Under the pieces are notes generated by a model that was not told the DNA's origin, did not search any database, and was given only the letters and a program-made list of their open reading frames with translations. The position numbers and the translations under genes are program-made. From positions 1 to 21,515 of IMG/VR virus record IMGVR_UViG_3300009703_003328: a DNA stretch of 21,515 nt; one strand, 5' to 3'. Shown here piece by piece: positions 1 to 14,914 of the stretch. How positions within the stretch are numbered: the stretch's first letter is position 1; every line of letters starts with the position of its first letter. This DNA comes from a virus.

Positions 1-353
1 TATTCTCCGACGACATAGACTGGTGTAAAGAGAATTTCTCTTCTTATAATTGTGAGTTCATATCAGAAAGAGAGCACTCGAAAAGCCCCACTACCCAAGA
101 CTCCGAAAATGAGTCACAGCTATTCCTCAAGGAAGACTTGATCGAGTTTGCTCTTATGAGTAAATTTAAAGACTCGATTATATGTAACTCTAGCTTTAGC
201 TGGTGGGCGGCGCACTTAAATAATAATACGAATAAAAGGGTATGTGCGCCTAAAAACTGGTTCACAAACGAACATGCCCCTAAAATATACAACCTAGACA
301 ACGGGTACGACTACATAAAAGACCTAATACCAACATCATGGAACCTCGTATAG
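1..353 (+). CDS. Alpha-1,2-fucosyltransferase, GT11 family (C-terminal part, 5' end outside window)
   Basis: The frame is open from base 3 to a TAG at 351-353, so about 116 C-terminal residues are visible; the family is usually near 290 residues. Two family signatures can be read: FSDDIDWCKENF at the window edge, and later EFALMSKFKDSIICNSSFSWW followed by APKNWF, written here in two pieces because the motif is long. These match the conserved GT11 blocks of bacterial alpha-1,2-fucosyltransferases, which move fucose from GDP-fucose to the O-2 of a galactose. The enzyme would act in the host cytoplasm on a lipid-linked or free acceptor. GDP-fucose synthesis genes (gmd, fcl) lie in the same cluster, which supports the donor. 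Its end overlaps the next gene by 16 nt. The family call is strong; the linkage and acceptor are inferred. Confidence 0.9.
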   Translation, partial: FSDDIDWCKENFSSYNCEFISEREHSKSPTTQDSENESQLFLKEDLIEFALMSKFKDSIICNSSFSWWAAHLNNNTNKRVCAPKNWFTNEHAPKIYNLDNGYDYIKDLIPTSWNLV

Positions 354-1063
354 CTATAATCTTTATTGGAACTAAAAAGTATATAGATTTTTTTGAATCT
401 TATTACAGTTCTATCAATAAATTTTTCTTACCTAAAACTCATAAAGATTTTTTCGTATTCACGGACCAACCGGAGCACAAGTCCCTAAAGGCAGACAACT
501 TAATCATAACTGAAATAGAGCACGAAGAATGGCCGTATGTAACGCTTAAAAGGTTTCACTATATACTAAAGCAAGAAGAGAAGCTTAAAGAATACTCGGA
601 TATAATTTTTATTGACTCAGACATGGAGGCCGTTGATGAAATATCAGAAGACTGGCTCTCTATGTACCACAGCTTATTCGGGGTCCAGCATCCCGGTCAA
701 GCCATATATGGATTAGCCGACTTCGAAACAAATGAAGAGTCACTCGCTTGCGTACCCTCTGGCACAACGAATGAGAACACAGCCTACAAGCAGGGCTGCT
801 TTTGGGGAGGCAAGAACCCAGACATTCTGGAATTCATTAACTTAATGAAGCAAAGAATTGACGATGACCTATCGGTCAACGTTGTAGCAAGGTGGCACGA
901 CGAATCTCACTTAAACAAAGGATTCATAGACTTCAAGGACAAGGTCACGGTTTTCCATAGCGGGTTTGCATACCCAGAGAACTGGGAGATGGTTTTCCCG
1001 AAACTACTCATACACAAAGATAAAAACATGAAGGATTACCCTAGGTTTAAAGGAGTAAAATGA
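338..1063 (+). CDS. GT6 family glycosyltransferase (histo-blood group ABO-like)
   Basis: A 241-residue GT-A enzyme that matches the ABO/alpha-1,3-galactosyltransferase family along its length. Blocks visible in order: VFTDQP (40-45), a W-P-Y-V-T-L-K-R segment (65-72), the metal-binding DSD (93-95) followed by MEA, LFGVQHPG (113-120), QGCFWGG (152-158) and WHDESHLNK (186-194). Known members move Gal or GalNAc from a UDP-sugar in alpha-1,3 linkage onto galactose, in the ABO case onto a fucosylated (H) acceptor. It has no membrane anchor, like the bacterial members. The DxD form is kept; from memory, many bacterial GT6 proteins have NxN here, while the cyanophage P-SSM2 homologue has DxD. The start ATG lies inside the end of the GT11 gene, and the stop overlaps the next start in ATGA. 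Donor and acceptor cannot be read from sequence. Confidence 0.92.
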   Translation: MEPRIAIIFIGTKKYIDFFESYYSSINKFFLPKTHKDFFVFTDQPEHKSLKADNLIITEIEHEEWPYVTLKRFHYILKQEEKLKEYSDIIFIDSDMEAVDEISEDWLSMYHSLFGVQHPGQAIYGLADFETNEESLACVPSGTTNENTAYKQGCFWGGKNPDILEFINLMKQRIDDDLSVNVVARWHDESHLNKGFIDFKDKVTVFHSGFAYPENWEMVFPKLLIHKDKNMKDYPRFKGVK

Positions 1064-1851
1064 ACCTCAAGGGTTTTTCTGGATGCGAAGTAAGACTCAG
1101 AAATGGCAAGGTAATTAAAACCTCGCCAAGCTTCCAGTACAACGACAGACTCGAAAAGCAAAGACTCAAGCAGAGCAAATTCAAAAGCGACCTTAAATAC
1201 CTAAGCACCCCTAAAGTGCTAAGCAGTACCGAAAACTCTTTTTCTATGGAGTACGCAGCAGGTAAGGACTTTGTATCATTTCTTTCCGAAGCAGGTAAAA
1301 AAGAAATAGACAAATTTTCAGAGGATATATTCTCTTACGTACAAGAGAGCATCTCTTTTTCTGAGACCCAAGAGATCGACTCTAAAATAATCAAGAATAA
1401 AATACTACAAATATACAAAAAGAAAAAAATACTCTGCTTGTTAAAGTTTATAGACCTTTTACCGGACAAACTAGAGATTCCAATAGGCACATGCCACGGA
1501 GACCTAACCCTAAGCAATATAATATTCCAAAAAAACAAGCTAATACTAATTGACTTCCTAGATGGATTCATTGAGACGCCGCTAATAGATGTAGCCAAAC
1601 TAAGACAGGATACTCATTATAAGTGGTCACTAGACCTATATCAAAAAAGCTTCGATAAAAATAAAATAAATATAAGTCTAGACTACTTGGATGCCAGACT
1701 ACATGACAGTTTTTTAAGCATCAAAAGCTATAAGAAATACTACCTTTTGTTCCAATTCTTAAACTTCGCAAGAATTCTTCCGTACACCAGAAAACTTAAA
1801 AAAATTAACTACCTAAGAGGCGTTCTCTCTGATATAGTTAGCAAGTTATGA
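1060..1851 (+). CDS. Aminoglycoside/choline kinase-like phosphotransferase (APH fold)
   Basis: A 263-residue protein with the catalytic signature of the APH/choline kinase superfamily: HGDLTLSNI at residues 146-154, in which D148 is the catalytic base and N153 binds metal, followed by the ILIDF segment with D165 as the second metal ligand. The N-terminal lobe is short and poorly conserved. Related genes in capsule and LPS clusters are thought to phosphorylate a sugar or other small substrate, but which one is not known here. The start follows a good Shine-Dalgarno site (AGGAG, five bases upstream) and overlaps the preceding stop as ATGA; its own end also overlaps the next gene by four bases, so it sits in a translationally coupled run. 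A role in glycan building rather than antibiotic resistance is inferred from context. Confidence 0.8.
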   Translation: MNLKGFSGCEVRLRNGKVIKTSPSFQYNDRLEKQRLKQSKFKSDLKYLSTPKVLSSTENSFSMEYAAGKDFVSFLSEAGKKEIDKFSEDIFSYVQESISFSETQEIDSKIIKNKILQIYKKKKILCLLKFIDLLPDKLEIPIGTCHGDLTLSNIIFQKNKLILIDFLDGFIETPLIDVAKLRQDTHYKWSLDLYQKSFDKNKINISLDYLDARLHDSFLSIKSYKKYYLLFQFLNFARILPYTRKLKKINYLRGVLSDIVSKL

Positions 1852-2870
1852 AGGTGGTTATCACAGGAGGCGCAGGATTTATAGGCTCCCAGCTAGGGTT
1901 TTACTACCACATTTTAGGTCACGACGTTCATCTCTTGGACGACTTTAGCTACGGGCAAAAAGATAACCTCACGATAGATGGTAAAACTTTCGGAACACTA
2001 CACGAATGCGACGCAAGAAACCAGCCAGAGCTAGAAAATATTCTTTCTGACTGCGAGTTAGTTATTCATCTAGCTGGAATCGCACCCCTACCCGACTGCC
2101 AAACAGACCCCCAGAGAGCTTATAGCGTAAATGTAGGCGGGTTAGCGAGCGTGCTAGAAGCTTGCAGAAAAAATAACGTACCGCGAATCCTCTTCGCGTC
2201 AACTTCAGCGGTTTACGAAAACACCAAGCCAACACAGAGAAGAGGGTACAGTGCAGGGTACGCTGAACACGACCCAGTAAACCCAGACCTTACCTACGCA
2301 ATGACTAAAAGGGCAGGGGAAAACCTATGCCTATCTTACATTAATAACTACGGAATGAGTATAGCTATACTTAGATTCTTTAATGTTTATGGAGCTCACC
2401 AAGATTTCCTAAGAAAGCAACCGCCATTCACTGGATATGTAGCAAAATGCCTAGCAAAAAACGAAGTCCCCACGCTATACAATCAATCTCCAGCAGAGAG
2501 AGATTATATTTTTGTAGAAGACTTAATATCTCTCGTCACAGAGATTGCCACCAGAAGCGATCAAATAGGAATTTATAACATAGGAACAGGGGTAGGGTTT
2601 TCAGTGCCAAAGCTATACCAGATATTTCTAGAAGTTTCCGGTAAAGATATCGAAGCTAAATTCAAAAACCCCGAAAACTACTGGGATAAATACGAATCCT
2701 TATTCAACTACACCAATCAACTTTCTACCCGCAGAATACAACAGGAAGTACACAAAAACTCTATAGCAGATATGTCAAAGTGTAAAAAAGAGCTAAACTG
2801 GGAGCCGAAGTTCAACATTGAGGAAGGGGTCAGCAGGGTATACAACTACGTACTAGAGAACATAAAATGA
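1848..2870 (+). CDS. NAD-dependent sugar epimerase/dehydratase (GalE-like, extended SDR)
   Basis: A 340-residue extended short-chain dehydrogenase. The Rossmann NAD-binding motif TGGAGFIG is at residues 6-13, the family HLAG segment follows, then FASTSAVY with the catalytic Ser/Thr, and the YAMTK motif with Y150 and K154. The C-terminal half has the usual RDYIFVEDL and YNIGTG blocks. Members of this group are UDP-glucose/UDP-GlcNAc 4-epimerases or dehydratases acting on nucleotide sugars in the cytoplasm. A 4-epimerase would supply UDP-Gal or UDP-GalNAc, the donors used by known GT6 enzymes, and such an enzyme lies two genes upstream; this link is inference. The gene overlaps both neighbours by four bases (ATGA). 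Exact substrate specificity cannot be set from motifs. Confidence 0.88.
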   Translation: MKVVITGGAGFIGSQLGFYYHILGHDVHLLDDFSYGQKDNLTIDGKTFGTLHECDARNQPELENILSDCELVIHLAGIAPLPDCQTDPQRAYSVNVGGLASVLEACRKNNVPRILFASTSAVYENTKPTQRRGYSAGYAEHDPVNPDLTYAMTKRAGENLCLSYINNYGMSIAILRFFNVYGAHQDFLRKQPPFTGYVAKCLAKNEVPTLYNQSPAERDYIFVEDLISLVTEIATRSDQIGIYNIGTGVGFSVPKLYQIFLEVSGKDIEAKFKNPENYWDKYESLFNYTNQLSTRRIQQEVHKNSIADMSKCKKELNWEPKFNIEEGVSRVYNYVLENIK

Positions 2871-3919
2871 GAAACATGAGAAGCTTAATTCTTCCGGTAG
2901 CGGGCAAATCGAGCAGATACCCCGACGTAAAACCCAAATGGCTCTCCACCCATCCAAGCGGAAGCCTAATGATAACCGAATCGATCAAAGGTCTGAACTT
3001 GGACTTCTTTGATTGCGTGTACTTAGTTTGCCTTAAAGAGCACGAGCGTAAATATAAATTCAGTGAAGGAATCAAAAAAGAATTCTCTAAACTTAAAATT
3101 AAAAATTTCAAGATTACTTATTTAAGTAAGCCCACCCTAAGCCAACCAGAGACGATATTTGAGGCAATAAAAAAAGAAAAAATCGAAGGCTTTTTCTGTT
3201 CTAAGGATTGTGACAATTTTTTCGAAATTAAAATCACACCCTCTAATTTTGTATCTACATCCAACCTAAATAACCACACGCTACTTAACCCATGTAACAA
3301 AAGCTATGTTTCTTGCGACGAAAATAAGAACATTAATAACATAGTTGAAAAACAGGTGATCAGTAGCGACTTCTGCACAGGATGCTACGGATTTAAAAAC
3401 GCAAGAGACTTCAGAAAGTACTACAATAAGATCAAGCACTACGACGACCTCTATGTCTCTCATGTTATCTACAAAATGATAATTGAAGGAGAAAGCTTCT
3501 CCACTCTTAACACCAGCAACTTTATTGACTGGGGAACCATAGACGACTGGAATCATTTTAAATCTAAATACAAGTGCGTCTTTATTGATCTAGATGGAAC
3601 TCTTGTAGAAAACAGCGCACAACACTTCCCTCCATACTGGGGAGAAACGGATGCTATTCCTGCTAACGTCAAAAAAATCAATGAACTATACGATTCGGGA
3701 AAAGCTCAAGTTGTAATCACAACATCCAGAAAAACAGGATACAAAAAAGAAACTAAATCCCAGCTAGAAAGAATCGGATTAAAGTACCACAAAATTATTT
3801 TTGATCTCTTTCACTGTAAAAGATATATAATTAACGATTACGCCAAAAGCAACCCATACCCTAGCTGCGAAGCCATTAATATTAAAAGAAACGACTCAAA
3901 CTTGGAGGACTTACTATGA
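2867..3919 (+). CDS. Sugar nucleotidyltransferase-like domain fused to HAD phosphatase-like domain
   Basis: A 350-residue two-domain protein. Residues 1 to about 230 resemble a nucleotide-sugar pyrophosphorylase: the opening ILPVAGKSSRYP resembles the nucleotide-binding loop, and FIDWGTIDDW near 225 matches the D-x-G-T-x-x-D-W signature that closes such domains. Residues from about 236 form a HAD-type phosphatase: FIDLDGTLVE with nucleophile D241 and D243, a VITTSR motif II, and a late IINDYA segment with the acidic metal residues. Similar fusions occur in bacterial capsule clusters, where activation of a sugar phosphate and removal of a phosphate are combined. The HAD family name is firm, the nucleotidyltransferase part less so, because the G-x-G-x-x-R loop is modified. 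A second in-frame ATG lies three codons downstream (2876); the first gives the ATGA overlap. Confidence 0.75.
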   Translation: MRNMRSLILPVAGKSSRYPDVKPKWLSTHPSGSLMITESIKGLNLDFFDCVYLVCLKEHERKYKFSEGIKKEFSKLKIKNFKITYLSKPTLSQPETIFEAIKKEKIEGFFCSKDCDNFFEIKITPSNFVSTSNLNNHTLLNPCNKSYVSCDENKNINNIVEKQVISSDFCTGCYGFKNARDFRKYYNKIKHYDDLYVSHVIYKMIIEGESFSTLNTSNFIDWGTIDDWNHFKSKYKCVFIDLDGTLVENSAQHFPPYWGETDAIPANVKKINELYDSGKAQVVITTSRKTGYKKETKSQLERIGLKYHKIIFDLFHCKRYIINDYAKSNPYPSCEAINIKRNDSNLEDLL

Positions 3920-4659
3920 AAATAGCTCTCTGCTTTTCGGGTCAACCCAGAGACCTAAAGGAATGCTACGAAAACATCAATAGAAATTTGATTGATGGCT
4001 ACGATGTGGATGTATATGCCCATGCTTGGTGGAGCGAGGACATGGCTGGCGCAGAGTACAAGCCAAACTCAATAAAGTTTCTAGAGAAAGCAGACGAAGA
4101 GTTTGCGAAGCTTTATAAACCTAAAAAAAGCGTATTTGAAAATCAAATAAAATTCGACACCTCATCTTGCAGTTCCGACAACCTAGGAGTTTGCCCGACG
4201 CTCTCAGACCTAGAAAGATGCTACTTCAACATGAAGAGCGCATACTACTCGACGGCAAGGAGTTTTGAGCTAGCGCTATCCTCGAATGAAAGCTATGACT
4301 TCTATGTAAGATGCCGCACCGATCTACTTTTTCCCAAGAAGTTCAAATATGAAGAGCTAGACTCTGATATTCTATATATTGGTGACGGCAGGACCGCTGG
4401 CTGGGACAGATTTTTTTCAGACTGGTTTGCTTGTGGCTCCAAATCGAACATGCAGAAGTATTGTCAAATTTACGAAAAGTTTGATAGTTACGTGAAAAGA
4501 GGGCTTCCGCACATGCATGACCTATTTAGATTTCACCTAGAAGACGCTAGATGCGATACCTACGCAATAGGGCCAGAAATATACTACTTCATGCCAAAAA
4601 AAGACGAGTTCGTCAACTTAGACGGAATGCCTAGGAGAATATTTTTTGATAAAAAATGA
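3916..4659 (+). CDS. WavE-like putative glycosyltransferase, tandem copy 1
   Basis: A 247-residue protein beginning MKIALCFSGQPRDLKECY, with VDVYAHAWW shortly after, and a central block YVRCRTDLLF followed by SDWFACGSKSNM. The same blocks recur in the next two genes, so the three are paralogues from tandem duplication. The R-T-D motif and the GQPR start resemble LPS-synthesis proteins of the WavE type and related putative glycosyltransferases; no biochemical activity can be read directly. It has no signal peptide or membrane segment, so it is probably cytoplasmic. A strong Shine-Dalgarno site (GGAGG, eight bases before the ATG) precedes it, one of the few in the cluster. It overlaps both neighbours as ATGA. 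Family resemblance is from memory and is of moderate certainty. Confidence 0.6.
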   Translation: MKIALCFSGQPRDLKECYENINRNLIDGYDVDVYAHAWWSEDMAGAEYKPNSIKFLEKADEEFAKLYKPKKSVFENQIKFDTSSCSSDNLGVCPTLSDLERCYFNMKSAYYSTARSFELALSSNESYDFYVRCRTDLLFPKKFKYEELDSDILYIGDGRTAGWDRFFSDWFACGSKSNMQKYCQIYEKFDSYVKRGLPHMHDLFRFHLEDARCDTYAIGPEIYYFMPKKDEFVNLDGMPRRIFFDKK

Positions 4660-5585
4660 AAATAGCAGTTTGTTTTTTCGGTTTCCCAAGAGAAGTAGAA
4701 ATCTGCTATTTAAATTTATTTAACCACATAATAAGAGGTCACGAACAAGTAGACATCTACGCTCATTTATGGTGGGACGACAGCCTAAGTGGAGAGCTAC
4801 ACCACAAGAAAAGCTACCACGTTAAGAAAGAGCTAATAAATAAAACTTACAAAGAAAACGAAGATCAAATTTTTAAAGACATTTACTTACCTAAAAGTAT
4901 ACAAATAGAAAAACCAATGAACCTAGAAGACTTTGATTTTTCCCTCTACGAAAAAGCAAAGAAGAGCGAGTCCCCAAACCCACTTCCAGAATTTGGCATA
5001 TTCGGAACCTCCCTAGAGGCAGTCAAGTATCTAGGTGGCAAATACAGACCAAACAGAGTCTTCTTCAGTGAGTACAGCCAGTGGAAATCGAAAAAGAATA
5101 GCCTAAAACTAGCTGTCGAATCAAAAGAAAAATACGACCTCTATGTCCTAACAAGGACAGACTTGATAACGAAAGACAGAATAGAGTACGACGAACTCGA
5201 AAAAGAGACTCTTTATTGCTCAAATGGCATAGTTTTTGGCGGTACAGGAGGGTTTTTGGGATCAGATTACCCTTTTTCTGATTTATTTGCTTGCGGAAAT
5301 TTAAAAAATATGTCTTCATATACGGAGTTTTTTGATTCGATATACGATTATATAGAACTGCCAATACATCTACAACTCGAAAAACACCTATCAATAAACA
5401 ACAAGATAAAATGCGAAGTAAAGAAGGTGACAGCACTACCATATTACTTATTTAAGGACTTGAATTCTACTTGGCCAAAGTACGAATTCCCTATTGGTAA
5501 AAAAAACTTTAAGTTTCCGAGGAAGCCAGAAGAGAGAAGGTCCAATAAAACTAGAAAAGGGTTTAAGGGAGACAATAAATTTTAG
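4656..5585 (+). CDS. WavE-like putative glycosyltransferase, tandem copy 2
   Basis: A 309-residue paralogue of its two neighbours. It opens MKIAVCFFGFPREVEICY, carries VDIYAHLWWDDS, and has YVLTRTDLIT followed by SDLFACGNLKNM in the same order as copy 1. It is about 60 residues longer than copies 1 and 3: it has extra sequence in the middle, between the AHLWW block and the RTD block, and a basic C-terminal tail rich in Lys and Arg. The GQPR of the other copies reads GFPR here. The gene starts in ATGA overlap with copy 1 and ends with TAG directly abutting the ATG of copy 3. It is likely a sugar transferase with an acceptor or donor different from the other copies, but that is inference. Confidence 0.58.
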   Translation: MKIAVCFFGFPREVEICYLNLFNHIIRGHEQVDIYAHLWWDDSLSGELHHKKSYHVKKELINKTYKENEDQIFKDIYLPKSIQIEKPMNLEDFDFSLYEKAKKSESPNPLPEFGIFGTSLEAVKYLGGKYRPNRVFFSEYSQWKSKKNSLKLAVESKEKYDLYVLTRTDLITKDRIEYDELEKETLYCSNGIVFGGTGGFLGSDYPFSDLFACGNLKNMSSYTEFFDSIYDYIELPIHLQLEKHLSINNKIKCEVKKVTALPYYLFKDLNSTWPKYEFPIGKKNFKFPRKPEERRSNKTRKGFKGDNKF

Positions 5586-6335
5586 ATGAAAACAGCCATA
5601 ATAGTTTGCGGTCAGCCTAGGTTTATCGAAGAATGTTTTCCATTGATGAAGGAGAACGTAATAGACCCCAACAACGCAGACGTATTTGCCCACCTCTGGT
5701 TCAGCGAAGAGTTATGTACGGAGCCCTACAAACACGGAGGCGCTGGGGGATGGAAGAACCAAAGAATCAAAAACGACTCCATAGAAAAATTCAAAGAGCT
5801 ATACAAACCAATATCACTAAAAGTAGAAGAACCCAAAACTTTCTTAAATTCCACTATCAACTTCGATGAATCATTGCAAAGGTATTTCGAGGGAGCCATA
5901 GAGAACCCAGAAGAACCAAACTTCAGATTCAGAACCATAAGAGACAACTATAGCGCCAAGTACAGCCTACTCAAGAGCAGTATTCTCAAAAAAACACATG
6001 AGTTAGAAAATGATTTTAAATATGATTATGTAATCAAAATAAGAACAGACGTAATATCATACATTAAGATTAATGCGGCAGACTACGACCCCGACCTTGT
6101 TCACTACAAGGACATGAACCAGCCAGACGGCATGATTTCAGATTGGTTAAACCTAAGCTCTAGCAAAAATATGGATGCCTATGGCAGCGTTTTTAACACG
6201 TTCGAATTCGCATTACAAGAATGCGTTAAAGACACGGGCGCTTATTGTAATGAATTACTGATTAGGAAAACTTTAGATTTTTTTGATGTTAAAATACAAG
6301 GACACAACTGGCCCCTAGCGCTACCCAGATTCTAG
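5586..6335 (+). CDS. WavE-like putative glycosyltransferase, tandem copy 3
   Basis: A 249-residue third paralogue. It begins MKTAIIVCGQPRFIEECF, has ADVFAHLWF at the position of AHAWW and AHLWW in the other copies, and YVIKIRTDVISY followed by ISDWLNLSSSKNMDAYG. The R-T-D triad is kept, while the FACG of copies 1 and 2 is replaced by LNLS. The ATG follows the preceding TAG with no spacer, and its own TAG abuts the next ATG in the same way, which suggests translation by re-initiation. As with the other copies, the glycosyltransferase role is inferred from motif resemblance and from its location among sugar-transfer genes. Confidence 0.58.
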   Translation: MKTAIIVCGQPRFIEECFPLMKENVIDPNNADVFAHLWFSEELCTEPYKHGGAGGWKNQRIKNDSIEKFKELYKPISLKVEEPKTFLNSTINFDESLQRYFEGAIENPEEPNFRFRTIRDNYSAKYSLLKSSILKKTHELENDFKYDYVIKIRTDVISYIKINAADYDPDLVHYKDMNQPDGMISDWLNLSSSKNMDAYGSVFNTFEFALQECVKDTGAYCNELLIRKTLDFFDVKIQGHNWPLALPRF

Positions 6336-7307
6336 ATGCATAAGCAGAAAATAATTATTTGGGGACACCCACTGCATTCGCACACGATGTCCTATATACA
6401 AGAAGCTTTTTACAAAGCATTCTCATACTTAGGTTACGAAGTGTTTTGGTTTCATGACCTAGACTACCCCGAAGACTTTGACTGGGAAAACTGTATATTC
6501 TGGACAGAAGGATTTGCTGATTCAAAAATTCCGCTAGTCAAATCAAGCACCTACCTAGTACACGGCCCTCCAGACCCAGCCAAGTACATCAATGCTGGAG
6601 TAAAAAGATTTATAGACTTCAGATACAATCATGTTTGGCACAAAGATCATATATATGATTTCACCCTAGACAAGTCTAAAGTACAAAAGGTTGGAAGCTC
6701 TTGCTACTTTGAACCGAAGTCAAACAGGTCAATAAAATATAAAAACGACTACCACGAGTACGAAATTGCAGATTACGACAAATTCTACATAACTTGGGGA
6801 GCTAGCTTATTGCCTCATGAATTTAATTTTCAAGAAATTAAAAAAGAAAGAGAAAGAGTTATACATTTTTGCGGGAATTTAAGTCCAGACGGTAGATGTG
6901 AAAACTTTAGTACATTTTCTCAGTTCATAATGGAATGTAAAAAAGCAGGTATACCTTTTCATCATAACGACCCGTTCAGACACCCGCTACCAGAGGATGA
7001 AGTTCAAGAAAGAACCAAGCGTTCAATCCTAGCGGCAGACGTAAGAGGTCCAGAGCACTTGAGAAACGGCTACGTTCCGTGTAGGGTATTCAAGTCAGCT
7101 AGCTGGGGTCACCTTCCAATGACAAACTCCAAGGAGATTCACAGTGAGTTGGAGGGGCATTGCGTACTACAGGAAGACCCAGCACAGCTTTTTCATGACG
7201 CCATGGCCCAAAGAGAAAACTACACTTTTATTGAAGACTGTATGAGATACGTTAAAGATAACCATACATACTTAAACAGAATTGAATCAATATTAAAGGT
7301 CTTGTAA
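6336..7307 (+). CDS. GT-B type glycosyltransferase, CgeB/glycosyl transferases group 1-like
   Basis: A 323-residue protein. The N-terminal half opens KIIIWGHPLHSHTMSYI and has weak similarity to the acceptor-binding Rossmann domain of GT-B enzymes. The C-terminal third carries RTKRSILAADVRGP, then NGYVPCRVFKSASWGHLPMT, which matches the donor-binding region of the CgeB-like branch (group 1, type 2), in which an Arg-rich helix and a conserved VFE/VFK-A-x-G-x-x-P stretch contact the nucleotide sugar. The sugar and acceptor are unknown. It abuts the preceding gene (TAGATG), and its stop shares one base with the next start (TAATG). Confidence 0.65.
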   Translation: MHKQKIIIWGHPLHSHTMSYIQEAFYKAFSYLGYEVFWFHDLDYPEDFDWENCIFWTEGFADSKIPLVKSSTYLVHGPPDPAKYINAGVKRFIDFRYNHVWHKDHIYDFTLDKSKVQKVGSSCYFEPKSNRSIKYKNDYHEYEIADYDKFYITWGASLLPHEFNFQEIKKERERVIHFCGNLSPDGRCENFSTFSQFIMECKKAGIPFHHNDPFRHPLPEDEVQERTKRSILAADVRGPEHLRNGYVPCRVFKSASWGHLPMTNSKEIHSELEGHCVLQEDPAQLFHDAMAQRENYTFIEDCMRYVKDNHTYLNRIESILKVL

Positions 7308-8158
7308 TGGATTCTAAAAAAATTACCTTTGTATACATAGTTGGGGGAGGTGACGAGCATTACTCAAACCTCAAGACAAGCATAGACAGCATAACAGAAC
7401 TTCTACGTGAAACTAATTTTTTAGTTTTAGACCTAAACAATAAGTTCCCATCTGATTATCCCAACGTTAAAATCCTAGAGTCAACAGACAACCTAGACCT
7501 ATCACAAAAGAAAGTCGGGTTCCAGTTCTGGAGACAGAAGTACGTAGCCGTACTGGAAGCTCAGACAGAATATGTAGTATACGTAGACACAGACACCGCG
7601 CTAGCTAACGATAGATTTGATGAGTTATTTTCAGAAATCGGAGAAGGAGTAGGAGCGGCGAAACATTTTTACGTTCCGACGTTGAGAGACTTTTTCGAGA
7701 AAGCCGTGCCCTCTGAAAATAAAAAGTTTTTCCACGAATTATTCTTAACTTTCGAAGCAGACATAAACAGCAACTTTTACGCTGGGGGAGTATTCCTATA
7801 CAAAAACTCAGACAAAAACAGAGAGTTAATCTCGAAAGTCCTTGAGTCTTACGATTCCGTCTACAAAGATTCAGACGGCAACTACAAAGAATATATCCAA
7901 GGTGTTACAGACGAAGTCTTCTTAAGCGCAATTGCCGAAAAAGAAATAATCGACCTAGGAGGTAGACTCAATCATTGCTCGATGGGGCCAAAGCACATGG
8001 AATTAGAAATAACTAACGGAACACTGAAAGGCAAGAATCCGTTCGAAGAGGAAATGAAGGACGTAATATTTCTTCACGCAGACCCCCACAGGAGAGACCC
8101 AAGCAAGCACTACGAAGAACCAACGAAAACCAAAATAAAAGAATTGTTTAGATTATGA
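7307..8158 (+). CDS. GT-A type glycosyltransferase with DxD motif
   Basis: A 283-residue single-domain protein with the features of a GT-A nucleotide-sugar transferase: an N-terminal beta strand ITFVYIVGGG, the YVVYVDTDTAL strand with the metal-binding DTD at residues 94-96, NFYAGGVFLYKN in the acceptor region, TDEVFLSAI with a probable catalytic acid, and a late IFLHADPHRRDPS segment whose His could be the second metal ligand, as in GT8-like enzymes. It resembles phage and bacterial proteins of the GT8/nucleotide-diphospho-sugar transferase group, but I cannot name the exact family. The start shares a base with the previous stop, and the end overlaps the next gene by four bases. Confidence 0.68.
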   Translation: MDSKKITFVYIVGGGDEHYSNLKTSIDSITELLRETNFLVLDLNNKFPSDYPNVKILESTDNLDLSQKKVGFQFWRQKYVAVLEAQTEYVVYVDTDTALANDRFDELFSEIGEGVGAAKHFYVPTLRDFFEKAVPSENKKFFHELFLTFEADINSNFYAGGVFLYKNSDKNRELISKVLESYDSVYKDSDGNYKEYIQGVTDEVFLSAIAEKEIIDLGGRLNHCSMGPKHMELEITNGTLKGKNPFEEEMKDVIFLHADPHRRDPSKHYEEPTKTKIKELFRL

Positions 8159-9114
8159 AAATCTGCTTAATAGGACCGGGTATATTACCGATACCACCAG
8201 ATGGATGGGGCGCAGTTGAATCCTTGATGTGGGACTATTACTGCACTTTAGAGAAGAAGGGGCACGAAGTAAAAATCATTAACACCCCAGACAGAAACGA
8301 AATACTGAACGAGTGCAACGCTGAAAACTGGGACTTTGTTCACGTCCACTACGACCAATTCTACGACCTAATACCTCACATCCAATGTGAGAACAAGGGG
8401 ATAAGCAGTCACTACCCATATGTCGATCAACTTGAAAAACACGAATCCGATAACTACGGGCATATTTTTTACTTTTTAACTAGGAATGAAGGTTTCCATA
8501 ATTTTTGTATATCTAAAAAGGACAGAGATGCCTTCACCGAATGCGGGGCGAAGGAGGGCTCATGTTCAATCTTAGAGAACGGCGTCAACTTCGATAACTG
8601 GTCCTTTAACTCCCACTGCGAACTGCCAAACAAATCTGTTTATTTAGCGAAAATAGAAGAAAGAAAAAGACAGTATAAATTTCAATCCCTAGAAGGCGTG
8701 GATTTCATCGGCAAATTCCACAACACTAATTTTGATACCTCCAACTCAAATTACCTTGGAGAAATCAAACCTAGGGAAAAACTTTTCTCAATGCTTACGA
8801 ACTACGCGAATATGGTTTTGCTAAGCACTGGAGAAAATGGCACGCCCTTAGTAATCAAAGAAGCTCTGGCTTGCGGATTAGGTATAGTTTTTTCAGAATA
8901 TGCTTGTTCTGAATTAAATCTTGACCTACCATTTATCGACTTAATACCAGAGTCAAAGATAGACGATCTAGACTACATAAACTCGATCATTAAACAGAAT
9001 AGAGAAAGATGCATACCCATAAGAAATGACATAAGAAAATATGCTTTAGAAAATTTTTCTTGGGATGGTCTAGTTGATACTTACGTAGATAATATAAATA
9101 AAATTAAAAAATGA
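8155..9114 (+). CDS. GT4-like glycosyltransferase, tandem copy 1
   Basis: A 319-residue GT-B protein opening MKICLIGPGILPIPPDGWGA, the start typical of group 1 glycosyltransferases (GT4), where the Pro/Gly loop near residues 12-20 lies by the active site. The C-terminal half has SVYLAKIEERKRQ, which positions the basic residues for the donor phosphates, and the E-x7-E element in GENGTPLVIKEALACGLG. It is a close paralogue of the next gene, with the same length and aligned blocks throughout, so the pair arose by tandem duplication. The substrate is unknown. It starts in ATGA overlap with the gene before it and ends in ATGA overlap with its paralogue. Confidence 0.8.
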   Translation: MKICLIGPGILPIPPDGWGAVESLMWDYYCTLEKKGHEVKIINTPDRNEILNECNAENWDFVHVHYDQFYDLIPHIQCENKGISSHYPYVDQLEKHESDNYGHIFYFLTRNEGFHNFCISKKDRDAFTECGAKEGSCSILENGVNFDNWSFNSHCELPNKSVYLAKIEERKRQYKFQSLEGVDFIGKFHNTNFDTSNSNYLGEIKPREKLFSMLTNYANMVLLSTGENGTPLVIKEALACGLGIVFSEYACSELNLDLPFIDLIPESKIDDLDYINSIIKQNRERCIPIRNDIRKYALENFSWDGLVDTYVDNINKIKK

Positions 9115-10070
9115 AAATAGGAATCATTGGACCGGGTTTTATGCCTATTCCTCCAAAGGGCTGGGGCGCTATAGAATCATTGATTTGGGATTATTCAGAA
9201 GCCTTGATTGATCTTGGGCACGAAGTCTACATATACAACTCAAGAGACTTCCAAGGAGTCATAGAAAGCGTAAACTCAAGAGACTTAGACTTTGTGCACT
9301 TGCAGTACGACGATTATGTACCGATGATGAGGTTCATTAACTGCAAAAACAAAGCGGTCACAAGTCACTATGCATACTTAGAGCAACCAGAAAAGCATGG
9401 AGCCTACAATCAAATTTTTAACGCTTACAAAAATATAGATTACTACATATTTGCATTGTCACAAGGAATCAAGGAGACATACATTCGAGAGCTCTCAATA
9501 CCAGAAGAAAAAATTAAAATAACACCAAATGGCGCTAATTCTAATATGTTTCTTTTCGATTCTAAATGCCAGAAACCAGATAGATCAATTTGTCTGGCGA
9601 AAATAGACCCAAGAAAGAAACAGTCTTTCCTTCAAGGCAAAAACCTCAACATTGACTTTGCAGGAAACGAACAAGACACAGAGTTCGATTACGGCAGTTC
9701 AGACTATCTAGGAGAGTGGGAAAAAGGTAAAGTTTACGAGAGCCTAACCGACTACGCCAACATGGTCTTACTAAGCGATGGAGAAGCTCACTCTCTTTCC
9801 TGTTTAGAAGGTCTCATGGCTGGTCTAGGCTTAGTGATATCCGAACAAGCAACCGCAAACCTAGACCTTTCACTCCCCTTTATCGACGTAGTAAGCGAAG
9901 AGGAAATGAATGACACGAATCGACTGAGGGACATTATAGAAAAAAACAGAAAAGTCTCGGTTGAAAACAGAAGAGAAATCGTTAAATACGCAAAAGAAAA
10001 CTTTGAATGGAAAAAGTTAGCAGAACAATACGTAAAAACTATCGAAGGAGTTATAAAAGAAAATGAGTGA
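9111..10070 (+). CDS. GT4-like glycosyltransferase, tandem copy 2
   Basis: A 319-residue paralogue of the preceding gene. Shared blocks include IGPGFMPIPPKGWGAIESL at the start, LAKIDPRKKQ in the middle, YANMVLLSDGEAHSLSCLEG with the two Glu residues of the E-x7-E element, and LPFIDVVSEEEM near the end. A segment near residues 110-150 (for example ALSQGIKETY then TPNGAN) resembles the standard GT4 pattern more closely than copy 1 does. The different middle region suggests that the copies now use different acceptors or donors, which is inference. The last eight bases overlap the methyltransferase start. No membrane segment or signal peptide is seen. Confidence 0.8.
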   Translation: MKIGIIGPGFMPIPPKGWGAIESLIWDYSEALIDLGHEVYIYNSRDFQGVIESVNSRDLDFVHLQYDDYVPMMRFINCKNKAVTSHYAYLEQPEKHGAYNQIFNAYKNIDYYIFALSQGIKETYIRELSIPEEKIKITPNGANSNMFLFDSKCQKPDRSICLAKIDPRKKQSFLQGKNLNIDFAGNEQDTEFDYGSSDYLGEWEKGKVYESLTDYANMVLLSDGEAHSLSCLEGLMAGLGLVISEQATANLDLSLPFIDVVSEEEMNDTNRLRDIIEKNRKVSVENRREIVKYAKENFEWKKLAEQYVKTIEGVIKENE

Positions 10071-10623
10071 AGCTCAAGAAAAAATAAAAAAATGCATGAT
10101 CGCGGCCAGCGAGCTAAATCTAACAGACAAGGCCGACTATCACGCATACGAAGAGATTTACCCGCAACTCTTAGAAAAGTTCTACGGAAAAGAAGTAAAC
10201 ATACTTGAAGTCGGAACAGAAAGGGGAGGGGGACTCCATTTCCTTTGTAGAGCTTTTGAGAAAGCGAAAGTATACGGGCTAGACCATAGCTACCACAGAC
10301 TCAAAATTAACCAAGCCGAGACCGACAATCTTATACTTCTTTCTGAAAGCGACCAAACTAGCGTCAAAATCCTAGAAGACCCTTTATTCCCAGAGTCTGG
10401 ACTAGACTTAGTCATAGAAGACGCATCGCATGTCCACCACCTCTCCATAGCTACATTCGAACTGCTAGAACCTAAGCTAAACTCTGGGGCTGTTTACATA
10501 ATCGAAGATGTCTACCCAGAGTACCTTGAGTTATACCAAAAAGACGAAAGATTCACCGTCCATGATATAAGAGACGCAAAAGGCAGAGGAGACGATATAA
10601 TTGCCGTTTACGAAAAAGAATAA
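10063..10623 (+). CDS. SAM-dependent class I methyltransferase
   Basis: A 186-residue Rossmann-fold methyltransferase. Motif I is NILEVGTERGGG (residues 46-57), VYGLDHS gives the acidic end of strand 2, LDLVIEDASHVHH places E119, D120 and H123 in the motif IV region, and YIIEDVYPEY follows. The pattern recalls the macrocin/mycinamicin O-methyltransferase group, metal-dependent enzymes that methylate sugar hydroxyls, and similar small proteins lie in many surface-polysaccharide clusters. O-methylation of a glycan sugar is therefore the likely job, but this is inferred from context. The start is fixed by an eight-base ATGAGTGA overlap with the GT4 gene; AAGGAG lies 12 bases upstream. Confidence 0.75.
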   Translation: MSEAQEKIKKCMIAASELNLTDKADYHAYEEIYPQLLEKFYGKEVNILEVGTERGGGLHFLCRAFEKAKVYGLDHSYHRLKINQAETDNLILLSESDQTSVKILEDPLFPESGLDLVIEDASHVHHLSIATFELLEPKLNSGAVYIIEDVYPEYLELYQKDERFTVHDIRDAKGRGDDIIAVYEKE

Positions 10624-10624
10624 A

Positions 10625-11590
10625 ATGAAAAAAGACACTAAAATTTTCGTTGCTGGACATAGGGGCATGGTTGGCTCTGCTGTGCTAGAAAACCTAAAAT
10701 CTAAGGGCTACGAGAACTTGATAACCAAAACACGGCAAGAGTTAGACCTTACAAACCAGTCGGAGACCGAAGGTTTCTTTAAGCAATATTGGCCCAGTGT
10801 CGTAATAGATTGCGCCGCTAAAGTGGGAGGAATACATTCAAATAACGTATATCGTGCTGAGTTTATCTACGATAACCTACAAATACAAAGCAACTTAATT
10901 CATTACTCGCACGAATACCAAATAGACAAGCTTTTATTTTTGGGTAGCGTTTGCATCTACCCCAAGTTCACAGATCAGCCGATCAAAGAAGAGTACTTAT
11001 TAAGGTCTCCGCTAGAACCCACAAATGAGCCATATGCCATAGCTAAAATAGCTGGAATTAAAATGTGCGAAAGCTACTACAGGCAACACTCAGATGAGTT
11101 CCTATCGGTAATGCCAGCAAATCTCTACGGAGAAAACGACAACTTCCACCCTAAAAACTCACACGTATTACCTGCCTTAATGAGGAGGTTTCACGAAGCT
11201 AAAGAAAAAGAGCTAAAAGAAGTAGAAGTCTGGGGTACTGGCGAAGCGATGAGAGAATTCATGCACGTTAAAGACTTAGCTGATGCATGTGTGTATATCC
11301 TTGAGAATTGTAACTTTAAAGACATATATGACCAAGGAGTATCTCAAATAAACATAGGAACTGGAGAAGAAATCTCGATTAAAAATCTAGCTCACCTAAT
11401 TGCCGAAGTAGTAGGCTACCAAGGAGAAATAAAATTTGATCTATCAAAACCAGATGGTACTCTAAAAAGGGTGCTAGACTGTTCGAGGCTACATAAACTT
11501 GGGTGGCATCACAAAACCAGCTTAGAAGAAGGACTAAAATCCACTTATGATTGGTTTCAGAAAAATGAACTTAATTTAAGAAGCGTATGA
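10625..11590 (+). CDS. fcl: GDP-L-fucose synthase (GDP-4-keto-6-deoxy-mannose 3,5-epimerase/4-reductase)
   Basis: This 321-residue enzyme carries out the last step of GDP-L-fucose synthesis, epimerising at C3 and C5 and reducing C4 with NADPH. The nucleotide-binding motif GHRGMVG is at residues 11-17, AAKVGGIHSN and FLGSVCIYP follow with the catalytic Ser and Cys, and the YAIAK motif gives Y137 and K141, nearly the same positions as in the E. coli enzyme. REFMHVKDLADA and NIGTGEE are further family blocks. A TTG codon at 10601 would extend the protein by eight residues into the previous gene; the ATG at 10625, one base after the previous stop, gives the normal family N-terminus. Its ATGA overlap with gmd downstream couples the two enzymes of the pathway. 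Confidence 0.95.
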   Translation: MKKDTKIFVAGHRGMVGSAVLENLKSKGYENLITKTRQELDLTNQSETEGFFKQYWPSVVIDCAAKVGGIHSNNVYRAEFIYDNLQIQSNLIHYSHEYQIDKLLFLGSVCIYPKFTDQPIKEEYLLRSPLEPTNEPYAIAKIAGIKMCESYYRQHSDEFLSVMPANLYGENDNFHPKNSHVLPALMRRFHEAKEKELKEVEVWGTGEAMREFMHVKDLADACVYILENCNFKDIYDQGVSQINIGTGEEISIKNLAHLIAEVVGYQGEIKFDLSKPDGTLKRVLDCSRLHKLGWHHKTSLEEGLKSTYDWFQKNELNLRSV

Positions 11591-12627
11591 AAAAAGTTTT
11601 AGTTACGGGTGTGCTTGGCCAAGATGGAGCCAACATGTGTGAGTACCTATTAGGGCAATGCAGCGACCTAAAGGTATTTGGAATGATTAGGCGGGTCGCC
11701 AATCCAAATTTCAATAACTGTAAAAAATTCCTCAACCATCCCAACTTCCAGCTAGTATATGGCGACTTAACGGACGAAATAAGTATACAAAAACTAGTAA
11801 GAGAAATCCAGCCAGATTACTTTATTAACTTCGCTGCGAACTCTTTTGTTGGAATTAGCTGGGACATGCCTCTCCACGTTTTCGATGTAAACGCTAACGG
11901 CGTAACTAGATGCCTAGAAGCAATACGGCACTTTCAACCAAATTGCAGATTCTACAGCGCGGGCAGCAGCGAAGAATTTGGCGATGTAGAGTACGCCCCA
12001 CAAGACATAAAGCATCCATTGAGACCTAGGAGCCCATACGGAGCCTCCAAATGCTCAGCGAGGCATCTCATTAAAGTCTACAGAGAGTCATACGACATGT
12101 ACGCGGTACACGGAATACTGTTTAACCATGAAGGAACCAAAAGGGGCGAAGAGTTTGTGACCAGAAAAATCACCAAAGGTGTCGCTAGAATTAAAAAATC
12201 CATAGACAGAAAAGAAAAATTTGAACCAATAGAACTCGGTAATATCTACTCCCAAAGAGACTGGAGCGACAGTGAGGACTTCGTAAAAGGCGTATGGCTA
12301 ATGTTAAATCAAGAAAAGCCAGAAGATTATGTCCTAGCCAGTGGAGAAACCCACACCATTAAAGAGTTTGCCAGCAAAGCTTTTAAATACGCTGGCATTT
12401 CTGGAAGCTGGACAGAAATAGAGGATGAGCCCACTAAAACAAAACTTTACAACAACTCCCCAGAAGGAGAGATTTTAATTAAAATAAACCCTAAGTTTTA
12501 CAGACCAGCAGAAGTTGACCTGCTACTGGGAGACCCAAGCGAAGCTGAAGAAAAATTAGGCTGGGAAAGAAAGATTTCCTTTGACATGCTTATCAAAAGA
12601 ATGGTAGAGTTTGATCTTCATGAGTAA
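11587..12627 (+). CDS. gmd: GDP-mannose 4,6-dehydratase
   Basis: A 346-residue extended SDR enzyme that converts GDP-D-mannose to GDP-4-keto-6-deoxy-D-mannose, the substrate of the fcl product encoded just upstream. The cofactor motif TGVLGQDG (residues 7-14) has the Gmd-specific GQDG; SAGSSEEFG supplies the catalytic Ser/Glu, and YGASK has Y151 and K155. The C-terminal half has LGNIYSQRDWSDSEDFV and YVLASGETHT, both highly diagnostic. Length is usual for the family. No GDP-mannose-forming pyrophosphorylase is visible, so GDP-mannose must come from the host or from genes outside this window. Its stop lies within the first codons of the next gene (ATGAGTAA). Confidence 0.96.
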   Translation: MKKVLVTGVLGQDGANMCEYLLGQCSDLKVFGMIRRVANPNFNNCKKFLNHPNFQLVYGDLTDEISIQKLVREIQPDYFINFAANSFVGISWDMPLHVFDVNANGVTRCLEAIRHFQPNCRFYSAGSSEEFGDVEYAPQDIKHPLRPRSPYGASKCSARHLIKVYRESYDMYAVHGILFNHEGTKRGEEFVTRKITKGVARIKKSIDRKEKFEPIELGNIYSQRDWSDSEDFVKGVWLMLNQEKPEDYVLASGETHTIKEFASKAFKYAGISGSWTEIEDEPTKTKLYNNSPEGEILIKINPKFYRPAEVDLLLGDPSEAEEKLGWERKISFDMLIKRMVEFDLHE

Positions 12628-12979
12628 AAGAAAACCCAATAAATATCAAAAAATTATTGGGAGATTCTTCAAAGATAAAGCGAGCGCTTGGGCCAGCCCC
12701 AAGCAAATTAAAACAAATATGTTTCTAGCAAAGAAAATGCTAGAAATGATACCAGACGAAAAGTTCTGGGAAGACTTTCCTGTTCATGAAAACTGCAAGG
12801 ACTTAAGCTGGTTTTTTACAGAAGAAGGTAAGTCAATAATTAAAAACATTAAACTTACCAAAAACGTTAAACTGCCAGAGCGTGCAGTAAACGAGATTGG
12901 CGGGGAAAAATTTGGAGAAGACTTTAAAGCAGAAGAAAAAAAACCGAAAACCATAAAAGATTGGTTAGATGATGCCTAG
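12620..12979 (+). CDS. Unknown protein between gmd and uvsX-like gene
   Basis: A 119-residue protein I do not recognise. I chose the ATG at 12620, which overlaps the gmd stop in ATGAGTAA; a TTG at 12611 would add three residues. The N-terminus is basic (SKRKPNKYQK), a middle stretch (FFKDKASAWASPKQIKTNMF, then AKKMLEMIP) looks helical, then come several Trp and Phe residues (FWEDFP, LSWFFTEEG), and the C-terminal 30 residues are charged and probably disordered, ending in KDWLDDA. There is no signal peptide, membrane segment or cysteine pair. It overlaps the recombinase gene by 11 bases and is the first gene after the sugar cluster, so it probably belongs to the DNA metabolism module; a recombination or DNA-binding accessory role would be guesswork. 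Confidence 0.75.
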   Translation: MSKRKPNKYQKIIGRFFKDKASAWASPKQIKTNMFLAKKMLEMIPDEKFWEDFPVHENCKDLSWFFTEEGKSIIKNIKLTKNVKLPERAVNEIGGEKFGEDFKAEEKKPKTIKDWLDDA

Positions 12980-14066
12980 AAAAGCCAAAGAACAAACAGC
13001 GGAAGTAAGTCACGTAGATCAGATAAAAGCGTATCTACAAAACAACAAAGATGATCATTACAATTTCGAGGAACAGACAGATTATGTTGTCTCTAGCGGT
13101 AGCTTAGTTTTAGACATAGAAATGAGCGGCGGAATCAGACCGGGTATAATTAGGGCTAGCGGGGTCACAGAGGGGGGTAAAACTTCATGCGCCTTAGCCT
13201 TTGCTAGAAATTTTCAAAAACTAGAGAACAGCATGGTAGTCTACGTTAAGTCAGAAGGAAGACTATCCAAGGAAATGGTTCAAAGAGCAGGAATCGATGA
13301 AGATGAAAGAAAGTGGCTGGAATATAAAAGCAATACCTACGAATCGGTTATTAACCTTATAAGAGCATTGATTAAAGACAATAAACATAAAGTTAAATAT
13401 ATGTTTATTATTGATTCGATGGACTCTTTAGTACCTAAAGCTGACCTACAGAAAGGACCAGAGGACGCGAATAAAGTAGCCGCTGGAGCCCTGCTAAGCT
13501 CAGACTTTTTAAGAAAAATGGCACTAGCATTAACAACAAGGGGGCATATCTGTTTCATGGTTTCCCAAGTAAGAGCGAAAGTATCGCTAAACCCTTACGA
13601 AAAAACAGACCCCAAAATAACCAATGCGTCTGGAGGTAACGCGCTTCTCCATTATAGTGATTGGATTCTAGAGTTCCAAGAAAGATTTAAAAAAGACTTA
13701 ATCTCAAAAGGAACCGGAGACAAAGAAGAAGCGGTTGGACATTGGTGTAAGGTTGTTTTTAAAAAAACACCAAACGAAAAAACTGGCTCTGTTGTAAAGT
13801 ATCCAATTAGGTACGGAAGAACAGGAGGCAAAAGTATATGGGCTGAGTACGAAGTCGTTGAAGTGTTACTGGCATTCGACATGGCTAAGAAGAGCGGCGC
13901 ATGGGTCTCAGTATCCGATGATTTAATTGAGGAAATTAAAAATGAACTCAGCCTAGAGATGCCGAAACAGCATCAAGGCATTGACAACTTTAAAAAATTC
14001 TTTGAAGATAATGAGGAGATAGGTAAGTATCTGTTTAATAAGTTTAGAGAAGTTTTAAAAAAATAA
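12969..14066 (+). CDS. uvsX: UvsX/RecA-family recombinase
   Basis: A 365-residue RecA-fold ATPase for homologous pairing and strand exchange on single-stranded DNA. The Walker A motif is GVTEGGKTS at residues 65-73 (K71), E96 in VKSEGRLS matches the catalytic Glu of RecA, and Walker B is YMFIIDSMDSL with D149. A VSQVRAK block followed by ASGGNAL near residues 195-225 corresponds to loop L1/L2 and the nucleotide-sensing region. The leading SSGSLVLDIEMSGGIRPG is the usual pre-Walker strand. The length suits either T4-type UvsX or a phage RecA; I use uvsX for the phage context, and recA would be an equally valid name. It ends 23 bases before the tmRNA. Confidence 0.9.
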   Translation: MMPRKAKEQTAEVSHVDQIKAYLQNNKDDHYNFEEQTDYVVSSGSLVLDIEMSGGIRPGIIRASGVTEGGKTSCALAFARNFQKLENSMVVYVKSEGRLSKEMVQRAGIDEDERKWLEYKSNTYESVINLIRALIKDNKHKVKYMFIIDSMDSLVPKADLQKGPEDANKVAAGALLSSDFLRKMALALTTRGHICFMVSQVRAKVSLNPYEKTDPKITNASGGNALLHYSDWILEFQERFKKDLISKGTGDKEEAVGHWCKVVFKKTPNEKTGSVVKYPIRYGRTGGKSIWAEYEVVEVLLAFDMAKKSGAWVSVSDDLIEEIKNELSLEMPKQHQGIDNFKKFFEDNEEIGKYLFNKFREVLKK

Positions 14067-14183
14067 ATTTAAAAAGTGTAAACTTTAACGGGGGCGTACT
14101 GGTTTCGATTTAGAGCCTTACGCAAGATTGCAAGCAGAGGATGATAGTGGGCCTCTTAAAACATCTATCAAGGCAATTCAACT

Positions 14184-14276
14184 GCCAATAATGTTGATAT
14201 GGCTCCTTCGGTTGCCGAAGCTGACGCGATTCTCGCTAAGCACGGCTGGGCTGAAGAGGCTGCTGTAGCTGCGTAA
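14184..14276 (+). other. tmRNA tag reading frame, 30 codons plus TAA
   Basis: The resume codon is GCC at 14184, base 95 of the RNA, about 13 bases after the PK1 pseudoknot and close to the E. coli position (about 90). The frame reads ANNVDMAPSV first, continues through an Ala-rich, charged middle (EADAILAKHG), and ends WAEEAAVAA before TAA at 14274. The stop falls in the loop of a hairpin with arms GTAGCT (14265-14270) and AGCTAC (14276-14281), the normal helix 5 arrangement. The AVAA end fits a ClpXP-type degradation signal. Usual tags are about 8 to 15 residues, so 30 is long. The first ANN and the AVAA end resemble several bacterial tags; the middle does not. Confidence 0.85.
14206..14220 (+). 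other. Hairpin inside the tmRNA tag reading frame
   Basis: CTTCGG (14206-14211) pairs perfectly with CCGAAG (14215-14220) across a three-base TTG loop, inside the tag frame and about 20 bases after the resume codon. Standard tmRNAs keep this part of the tag frame largely unpaired, so the helix is an addition that goes with the lengthened tag. Confidence 0.55.
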
Positions 14277-14497
14277 GCTACCCGTCCTACTCTGGATGCT
14301 CGTTAAGGAGCTAGGGCGTCGATAGCGAGCAAAAAAAACTAGGAAGAGGGAGGAGTCTAGTATAAATAAAGTGCCTCCAACCTCGTGTGTAGTTGTTAGT
14401 GACGAAGCACGAAAATTAACACTAACTAAGCTTGTAGCATATCTGAGCAGATGGTTTTGAAGACAGGGGTTCGACTCCCCTCGCCTCCACCAATTTT

Positions 14498-14914
14498 ATG
14501 AGACTATACAACATTTACGGCAAACTCCAGAACAAGAATGTCTCTAAATACCTTATTAACTGGGATTCTAAATCTAGATCAAAAATACAATTTAAAGTAA
14601 AGCAGTTTTTTAAAGATTTCTGGCTAGGTCACGTTGTATATGAAGAGTTCCCTGTCTACGGAACCAAAATGAAAGTTGACCTACTTAACGCTACATTTAA
14701 AGTTGCTATAGAAGTTAACGGAAAACAGCACTCGGAATTTAATAAATTTTTCCACAGTAACTCCAGAATAAAGTATCTGGACTCAATAAAAAGAGACTTT
14801 AAGAAAGCCGAATGGCTTGATAAAAATAAATTTAAATTAATAGAAATAGAAGAAAATGAAATAGGAGAAATGTCCAAGACATTCTTTAAAGAAAAATTCG
14901 GATTGATTCTTTAA
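14498..14914 (+). CDS. Vsr/EDxHD-type homing endonuclease-like protein
   Basis: A 138-residue protein with the layout of the PD-(D/E)XK Vsr-like (EDxHD) nucleases found as freestanding or intron-borne homing endonucleases in phages. Residues fitting the signature: E49 or E50 in VVYEEFPV, D61 in MKVDLL, E72 in AIEVNGKQH, H78 in the same block (the xH), and D100 in KRDFKKAEWL. The fold order, beta-beta-helix around these residues followed by a final FKLIEIEENEI strand, fits. The ATG lies five bases after the tmRNA CCA, without a Shine-Dalgarno site. Freestanding endonucleases of this type spread into neighbouring conserved sites, so the tmRNA or recombinase gene could be its target in related phages; that is inference. 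It could instead be a repair enzyme of the Vsr kind. Confidence 0.62.
   Translation: MRLYNIYGKLQNKNVSKYLINWDSKSRSKIQFKVKQFFKDFWLGHVVYEEFPVYGTKMKVDLLNATFKVAIEVNGKQHSEFNKFFHSNSRIKYLDSIKRDFKKAEWLDKNKFKLIEIEENEIGEMSKTFFKEKFGLIL

Follow-up and report, generated by a model that had tools for sequence, protein, structure and literature searches.

Long tags with a conserved internal core in a class of phage one-piece tmRNAs

Introduction

The ssrA RNA of Escherichia coli (RF00023) encodes the tag ANDENYALAA, and 10 residues is the commonest length of a tmRNA tag (tmRNA database paper, 2025; PMC11915505). Phages contribute only 79 of the 97,179 sequences in the curated tmRNA database (PMC11915505). 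A long bacterial tag is found in the mf-ssrA/mf-Lon system of Mesoplasma florum, where the protease specificity of mf-ssrA has moved from ClpXP (PMC9382460). The two-piece tmRNA of SAR11/OM43 phages, Melnitz among them, is marine and phage-borne, and the authors of the Melnitz study suggested for phage tmRNAs a possible part in the early turnover of host proteins during infection (PMC9004378). Mycobacteriophages of cluster C1 (Bxz1-like) also encode a tmRNA, with a long tag of 25 residues.

The tmRNA gene analyzed here lies in a phage fragment of 21,515 nucleotides (IMG/VR record IMGVR_UViG_3300009703_003328, positions 1 to 21,515), referred to as the window. It resembles E. coli ssrA in its G3-U70 tRNA-like domain, its PK1 and its resume codon context, and it shares with standard bacterial ssrA a stop codon in helix 5, an AN. 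start to the tag and the usual -AA end. Unlike standard bacterial ssrA, its tag has 30 residues rather than 9-16, and unlike the bacterial tmRNAs searched, the tag has a conserved internal segment that is predicted to be helical. The cluster C1 tag is similar in being long and phage-encoded, in an AEEAA sequence near its end and, by eye, in a Thr/Ser-capped acidic-hydrophobic helix. It differs in lacking the APS..EAD.ILA.FG core of the window tag, in its C-terminal ALV and in the host of its phages, Mycobacterium smegmatis. The mf-ssrA tag is bacterial, comes from a host without active ClpXP, ends ...NYAFA and has no sequence in common with the window tag. The SAR11/OM43 phage tmRNA differs in being permuted.

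Results and discussion

The tmRNA gene and its reading frame

ARAGORN identified a single tmRNA in the window, with the tag ANNVDMAPSVAEADAILAKHGWAEEAAVAA (Table 1). The Rfam covariance model RF00023 aligned to the same 403 bases over its full length and scored 130.2 bits against a gathering score of 47. The alanine identity elements G3-U70, A73 and CCA can be read from the sequence, and the acceptor strand GGGGGCG pairs with CGCCUCCACCA. Judged by its sequence, this is an intact one-piece gene. The sequence-only reading had drawn a 30-codon tag frame from a GCC resume codon to a TAA in the helix 5 loop. ARAGORN and RF00023 agree on these coordinates, and the resume triplet of the covariance alignment falls on the same GCC with no shift downstream. 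PK1 ends 13 nt before the resume codon, where the usual spacing is ~12 nt, and the stop codon at 14274-14276 lies inside the helix 5 loop. The ends of the tag (ANN...VAA) fit an ordinary ssrA, with an AN-type start and an Ala-Ala end.

Table 1 Features of the tmRNA locus in the window.
Feature	Position	Strand	Basis
UvsX/RecA-like recombinase gene, directly upstream of the tmRNA	12969..14066	+	Pfam RecA 2.3e-18
One-piece tmRNA gene (ssrA) with its encoded CCA	14090..14492	+	ARAGORN; RF00023 130.2 bits, model 1-374
PK1 (AGAGG/CCTCT + TGATAG/CTATCA)	14136..14170	+	RF00023 alignment and sequence reading
Resume codon GCC, context TCAACT, A at -4	14184..14186	+	RF00023 alignment; ARAGORN; same context in homologues
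Tag reading frame and stop, ANNVDMAPSVAEADAILAKHGWAEEAAVAA, 30 aa	14184..14276	+	ARAGORN, sequence; frame kept in homologues (63 unique tags)
Tag core, conserved, residues 7-22 (APSVAEADAILAKHGW)	14202..14249	+	Codon table, alignment, dN/dS, AlphaFold
Helix 5 hairpin GUAGCU-GCGUA-AGCUAC, 6 bp, stop codon in loop	14265..14281	+	Sequence; hairpin scan
T-arm (GGGGTTCGACTCCCC), 3' acceptor strand with U70, CCA	14466..14492	+	RF00023 alignment

A resume codon further downstream would give a short tag, and this is the form that ARAGORN reports in some relatives (e.g. EADEILAKFGY...), with late starts called in L004, L006, L015, L020-L024, L031 and others. The RF00023 alignment and the PK1 spacing argue against such a start. 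The conserved frame of many homologues stays open upstream of the ARAGORN call as far as a codon of the GCN or GGN type, set in the context usual for resume codons, so the call is too late there. In their upstream sequence, L004 and L006 do not differ from the window, in which ARAGORN picks the upstream start, and even the shortened versions would have 17-22 residues. A downstream start is extremely unlikely.

Tag length in bacteria and phages

The tag had been described as exceptionally long, which holds against bacteria and fails against phages. Sixty bacterial one-piece tmRNA tags, sampled from two phyla, one represented by the group of a Rhodospirillales genome and the other by that of a Limisphaerales genome, had 9-16 residues and ended AA in every case. 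At 30 residues, roughly threefold the usual length, the window tag lies far beyond this sample and outside the 8-16 of an ordinary bacterial ssrA. Viral one-piece tmRNAs were retrieved with the 3' 25-mer of the window only and their tags were read by eye. Most had 33-35 residues. Two of these long tags, AEDNTDALLAEAEYCINHADEILAGVEDEYLLAA (L044) and ANSNEFAMTSAEADALLANGIAAPTGVEAGALAAA (L079), have a similar ADEILA stretch and a third, AKAIANAVKSVKSFMTNVAEFFSFENELCLAAA (L057), does not; L048 from this set is a one-piece tmRNA with a 10-residue tag. The cluster C1 mycobacteriophages Momo and McGee encode the 25-residue tag ATDTDATVTDAEIEAFFAEEAAALV (L171:1501-1935; L172:1501-1935), and the Bacillus phage G tag has 13 residues. 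The permuted viral tmRNAs in L032, L051, L066 and L068 carry ordinary tags of 10-15 residues. Long, acidic tags with a tendency to form a helix thus seem to recur among phage one-piece tmRNAs, one large branch of which is defined by the APS..EAD.ILA.FG core.

The viral one-piece tmRNAs of L045, L057, L063, L078, L036, L038, L039, L044, L059 and L067, whose tags have 33-35 residues and a different sequence, form a second set. ARAGORN missed or misread most of its members.

A family of tags with a common core

A 27-mer surrounding the resume codon was present without mismatch in five viral contigs, all with the same type of tag. When 2.9 million viral contigs were scanned with degenerate-codon patterns, ~70 distinct tmRNAs were identified. 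The pattern E-A-D-x-I-L-A-x-x-G-[YF] was found in 58 contigs, all reading as tmRNA-type tags, and A-P-x-x-x-E-A-D-x-I-L-A in 72 contigs that overlap heavily with the first group; every one inspected was of the tmRNA type. The merged set held 68 tags with an assigned resume codon, under a rule that left out four records (L014, L085, L093 and L106) and that included the A at -4 present in all 68. These tags correspond to 63 unique peptides of 28-35 residues, which differ by insertions or deletions in multiples of three only. Examples are ANDNVDMEFAPSVAEADEILAKFGYVEEEALQPVA (L015), ANSNEMLAPSLAEADAILAKYGYADSELLAA (L103), AEDNFDMAMSLEEADAILAQYGFEDAEAELELV (L114) and GNNDQIPDYAPSLAEADEILARFATELELV (L154). 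Their common core, A-P-S-[L/V]-x-E-A-D-[A/E]-I-L-A-[K/R/Q]-[F/H/Y]-G-[W/Y/F], is found even where the remaining tmRNA is only ~33% identical; its E-A-D-x-I-L-A residues were fixed by the search patterns, and conservation is tested unconditioned in the UvsX-linked set only. The window tag carries the sequence that defines the family, AP[ST][LV]xEAD[AED]ILAx[FYHL]G[WYF], in frame within a tmRNA.

The two ends of the tag vary. The start may be ANN, AND, ADN, AED or GNN, and the 63 unique tags end in AA (45), LV (8), AV (4), VA (3), VE (2) or TA (1). The core is retained despite a changed C-terminal degron in the 18 tags that do not end in AA. With residues 7-22 conserved between variable ends, the proposal that a normal ANN start and AVAA end flank an added middle section is borne out. 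Comparison with related phages had been suggested as a check on the length, and the neighboring UvsX gene served as the anchor for retrieving relatives independently of the tag. Every tmRNA found in this way was long-tagged, with no short-tag homologue among them. Recurrence of the long frame in 63 unique tags, together with purifying selection in the tag frame only (see below), indicates at the sequence level that the tag is neither chance nor a freak and belongs to a class of phage tmRNAs.

The core was sought in bacteria and archaea with a similar degenerate-codon scan. Across 84,980 species it matched at three sites, none in a tmRNA: two were in MarR-like proteins and one was in another protein-coding frame. 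A source of the core among these species was rejected on this result. Since the scan gave no tmRNA match, the core appears to be virus-associated as far as the collections searched show. Neither blastn nor tblastn returned a homologous tmRNA from 50,697 cultured-phage records, where short peptide queries lack power because tblastn with a 25-residue tag missed the mycobacteriophage tag that is present there. The core-like segment of the Rhodospirillales MarR-like regulators (EADAILARYGFGRAHHRV; L138, 6788-6820, and L140, 855-887) is probably a chance resemblance.

Selection acts on the peptide

The mean entropy of the core is 0.41, 0.48 and 1.25 bits at the three codon positions, and its conserved serine is encoded by TCN as well as AGY codons. 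dN/dS was calculated over 17 codons in relatives found only through the neighboring UvsX gene, a small set of 8 distinct sequences. The value was 0.26 in the tag frame, against 1.2 and 0.68 when the sequence was read out of frame, and therefore purifying selection acts on the core peptide. In the most diverged members, 0.58-0.62 of the core nucleotides are identical to the window versus 0.33-0.36 in the tmRNA body.

A tmRNA is a structured RNA and a small hairpin (TTCGGTTGCCGAA) can form in the extra stretch of the window, so the stretch might be conserved as an RNA structure or a protein-binding site with the peptide incidental. The variation lies mostly at third codon positions, dN/dS is low in the tag frame only, the predicted folding of the tag RNA is not more stable than that of shuffles (z = -0.62) and the small hairpin is absent from relatives such as L002. 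Conservation as RNA is very unlikely, and an RNA-structure explanation was rejected on the codon and folding evidence.

Predicted structure of the core

AlphaFold, run with 52 tags, places a helix at residues 10-19, a turn at H-G-W and a short helix at residues 25-29, with a mean pLDDT of 88 for residues 11-20. The prediction for the core is thus a short helix, SVAEADAILAK, that is capped, ends in an aromatic-Gly-aromatic sequence and is followed by the second short helix. Ser9 with Glu12 resembles a helix-capping box, and Gly21 resembles a helix stop. Neither the sequence nor the fold of the core matched an entry in PDB, and the tag had no significant Pfam match, with one model at chance level in 3 of 52 members (best E 0.035). 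A UBA-like or DksA-like identity was rejected for want of a significant match in either database.

Proposed function of the long tag

Conservation of the core probably reflects a specific job during infection, because the core is common to dozens of uncultured phages and its amino acids are kept by selection. The tag, rather than ribosome release, is suggested as the part that the phage supplies, since the peptide is selected, is common to phages whose tmRNAs are about one-third identical and is absent from the bacteria searched. The phage one-piece tmRNA would use the SmpB and ribosomes of the host, and its tag carries an added, conserved segment of ~16 residues, which lies between a start of canonical type (ANN/AND/ADN) and an end that is canonical in most members (-AA). 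Because any protein interrupted in synthesis can receive the tag, the core would be readable only in trans. Its most likely role is that of a docking helix recognized by a degradation factor of host or phage origin, whether adaptor, AAA+ unfoldase or protease. Such a helix would replace or supplement the C-terminal Ala-Ala signal during ribosome rescue in infected cells. A phage tmRNA that works with host SmpB and ribosomes, with the added core as a likely docking helix for a degradation factor, has in our judgment an even chance of being the right description. Only tentatively do we propose that, in a widespread uncultured lineage, a phage-specific docking helix is read instead of or before the Ala-Ala degron and rescued proteins follow a fate chosen by the phage. 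A phage-specific tag would suit the early turnover of host proteins. Ordinary ClpXP recognition could be sufficient, because most tags keep the -AA end.

The range of 28-35 residues is narrow and approximates the capacity of the exit tunnel, and dissimilar viral one-piece tags are nearly equal in length at 33-35 residues (AKAIANAVKSVKSFMTN..., AEDNTDALLAEAEYC...). These lengths are consistent with a spacer or ribosome-level device that pushes the truncated protein from the exit tunnel or lengthens the handle for an unfoldase before release. Length should then matter most and sequence little, but the strong sequence conservation of residues 7-22 is not needed in a spacer, and the mycobacteriophage tags have 25 residues. 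A spacer is improbable. The tag could instead be a modified or weakened degron whose added segment shields the protein or slows degradation, so that truncated phage proteins would last longer or be routed to another destination, with the tmRNA serving mainly to recycle ribosomes. The helix-turn-helix predicted by AlphaFold and the ELELV or LLVE ends of some members, which match an Ala-Ala end poorly, are in keeping with this role. The retention of Ala-Ala in 45 of the 63 unique tags is what would be expected if degradation were still wanted, and a weakened degron is unlikely.

The docking-helix proposal bears on the suggestion in the sequence-only reading that a long tag could change which proteases or adaptors see it. 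The added middle section proposed in that reading is supported by the conservation of residues 7-22, the length itself is usual among phage tmRNAs of this class, and altered recognition by proteases or adaptors is a reasonable suspicion. As a defined peptide, the tag could serve as bait for a candidate adaptor or protease, and it might also yield a new degron for use in the laboratory. Cluster C1 mycobacteriophages combine a related architecture with a laboratory host that is safe to handle, which makes the question of the long tag testable now.

Genomic setting and candidate partners

Genes for a DnaB helicase, a Toprim primase-like protein, a PD-(D/E)XK protein, a PHP protein and an RNase T-type exonuclease lie downstream of the tmRNA. 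The tmRNA adjoins UvsX in some relatives and sits elsewhere in others. No SmpB gene was found in 30 viral records, most of them fragments, which implies that SmpB is supplied by the host. Candidate readers of the tag were sought in 23 tmRNA-bearing viral records, mostly fragments, and none was established. SspB was found in none of them. Stand-alone ClpP-like genes were present in 7, not adjacent to the tmRNA, and ClpP was absent from the others, including the 158-kb closest relative, although the contigs may be incomplete. ClpP was set aside as an obligate partner or established reader on these counts. Matches to the AAA family PF00004 were present, and none resolved to a tag-reading unfoldase.

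Several genes were recorded in passing. Two of the ClpP-like proteins (L174:1462-2181, minus strand, and L176:1276-2004, plus strand) have 239-242 residues, a charged N-terminal extension and catalytic-looking AASMAG and IHRA motifs. A phage with the tag ANSNEMLAPSLAEAD... encodes a 522-residue AAA ATPase that is a possible unfoldase (L178:1144-2712, minus strand). In the window, an open reading frame for 138 residues (14498-14914, plus strand) starts 5 nt past the CCA of the tmRNA; its product has no Pfam match and, on inspection by eye, looks similar to small nucleases of the VSR-like or PD-(D/E)XK kind. A long run of open reading frames at 338-12627 on the plus strand resembles glycosyltransferase and nucleotide-sugar (epimerase, dehydratase) genes.
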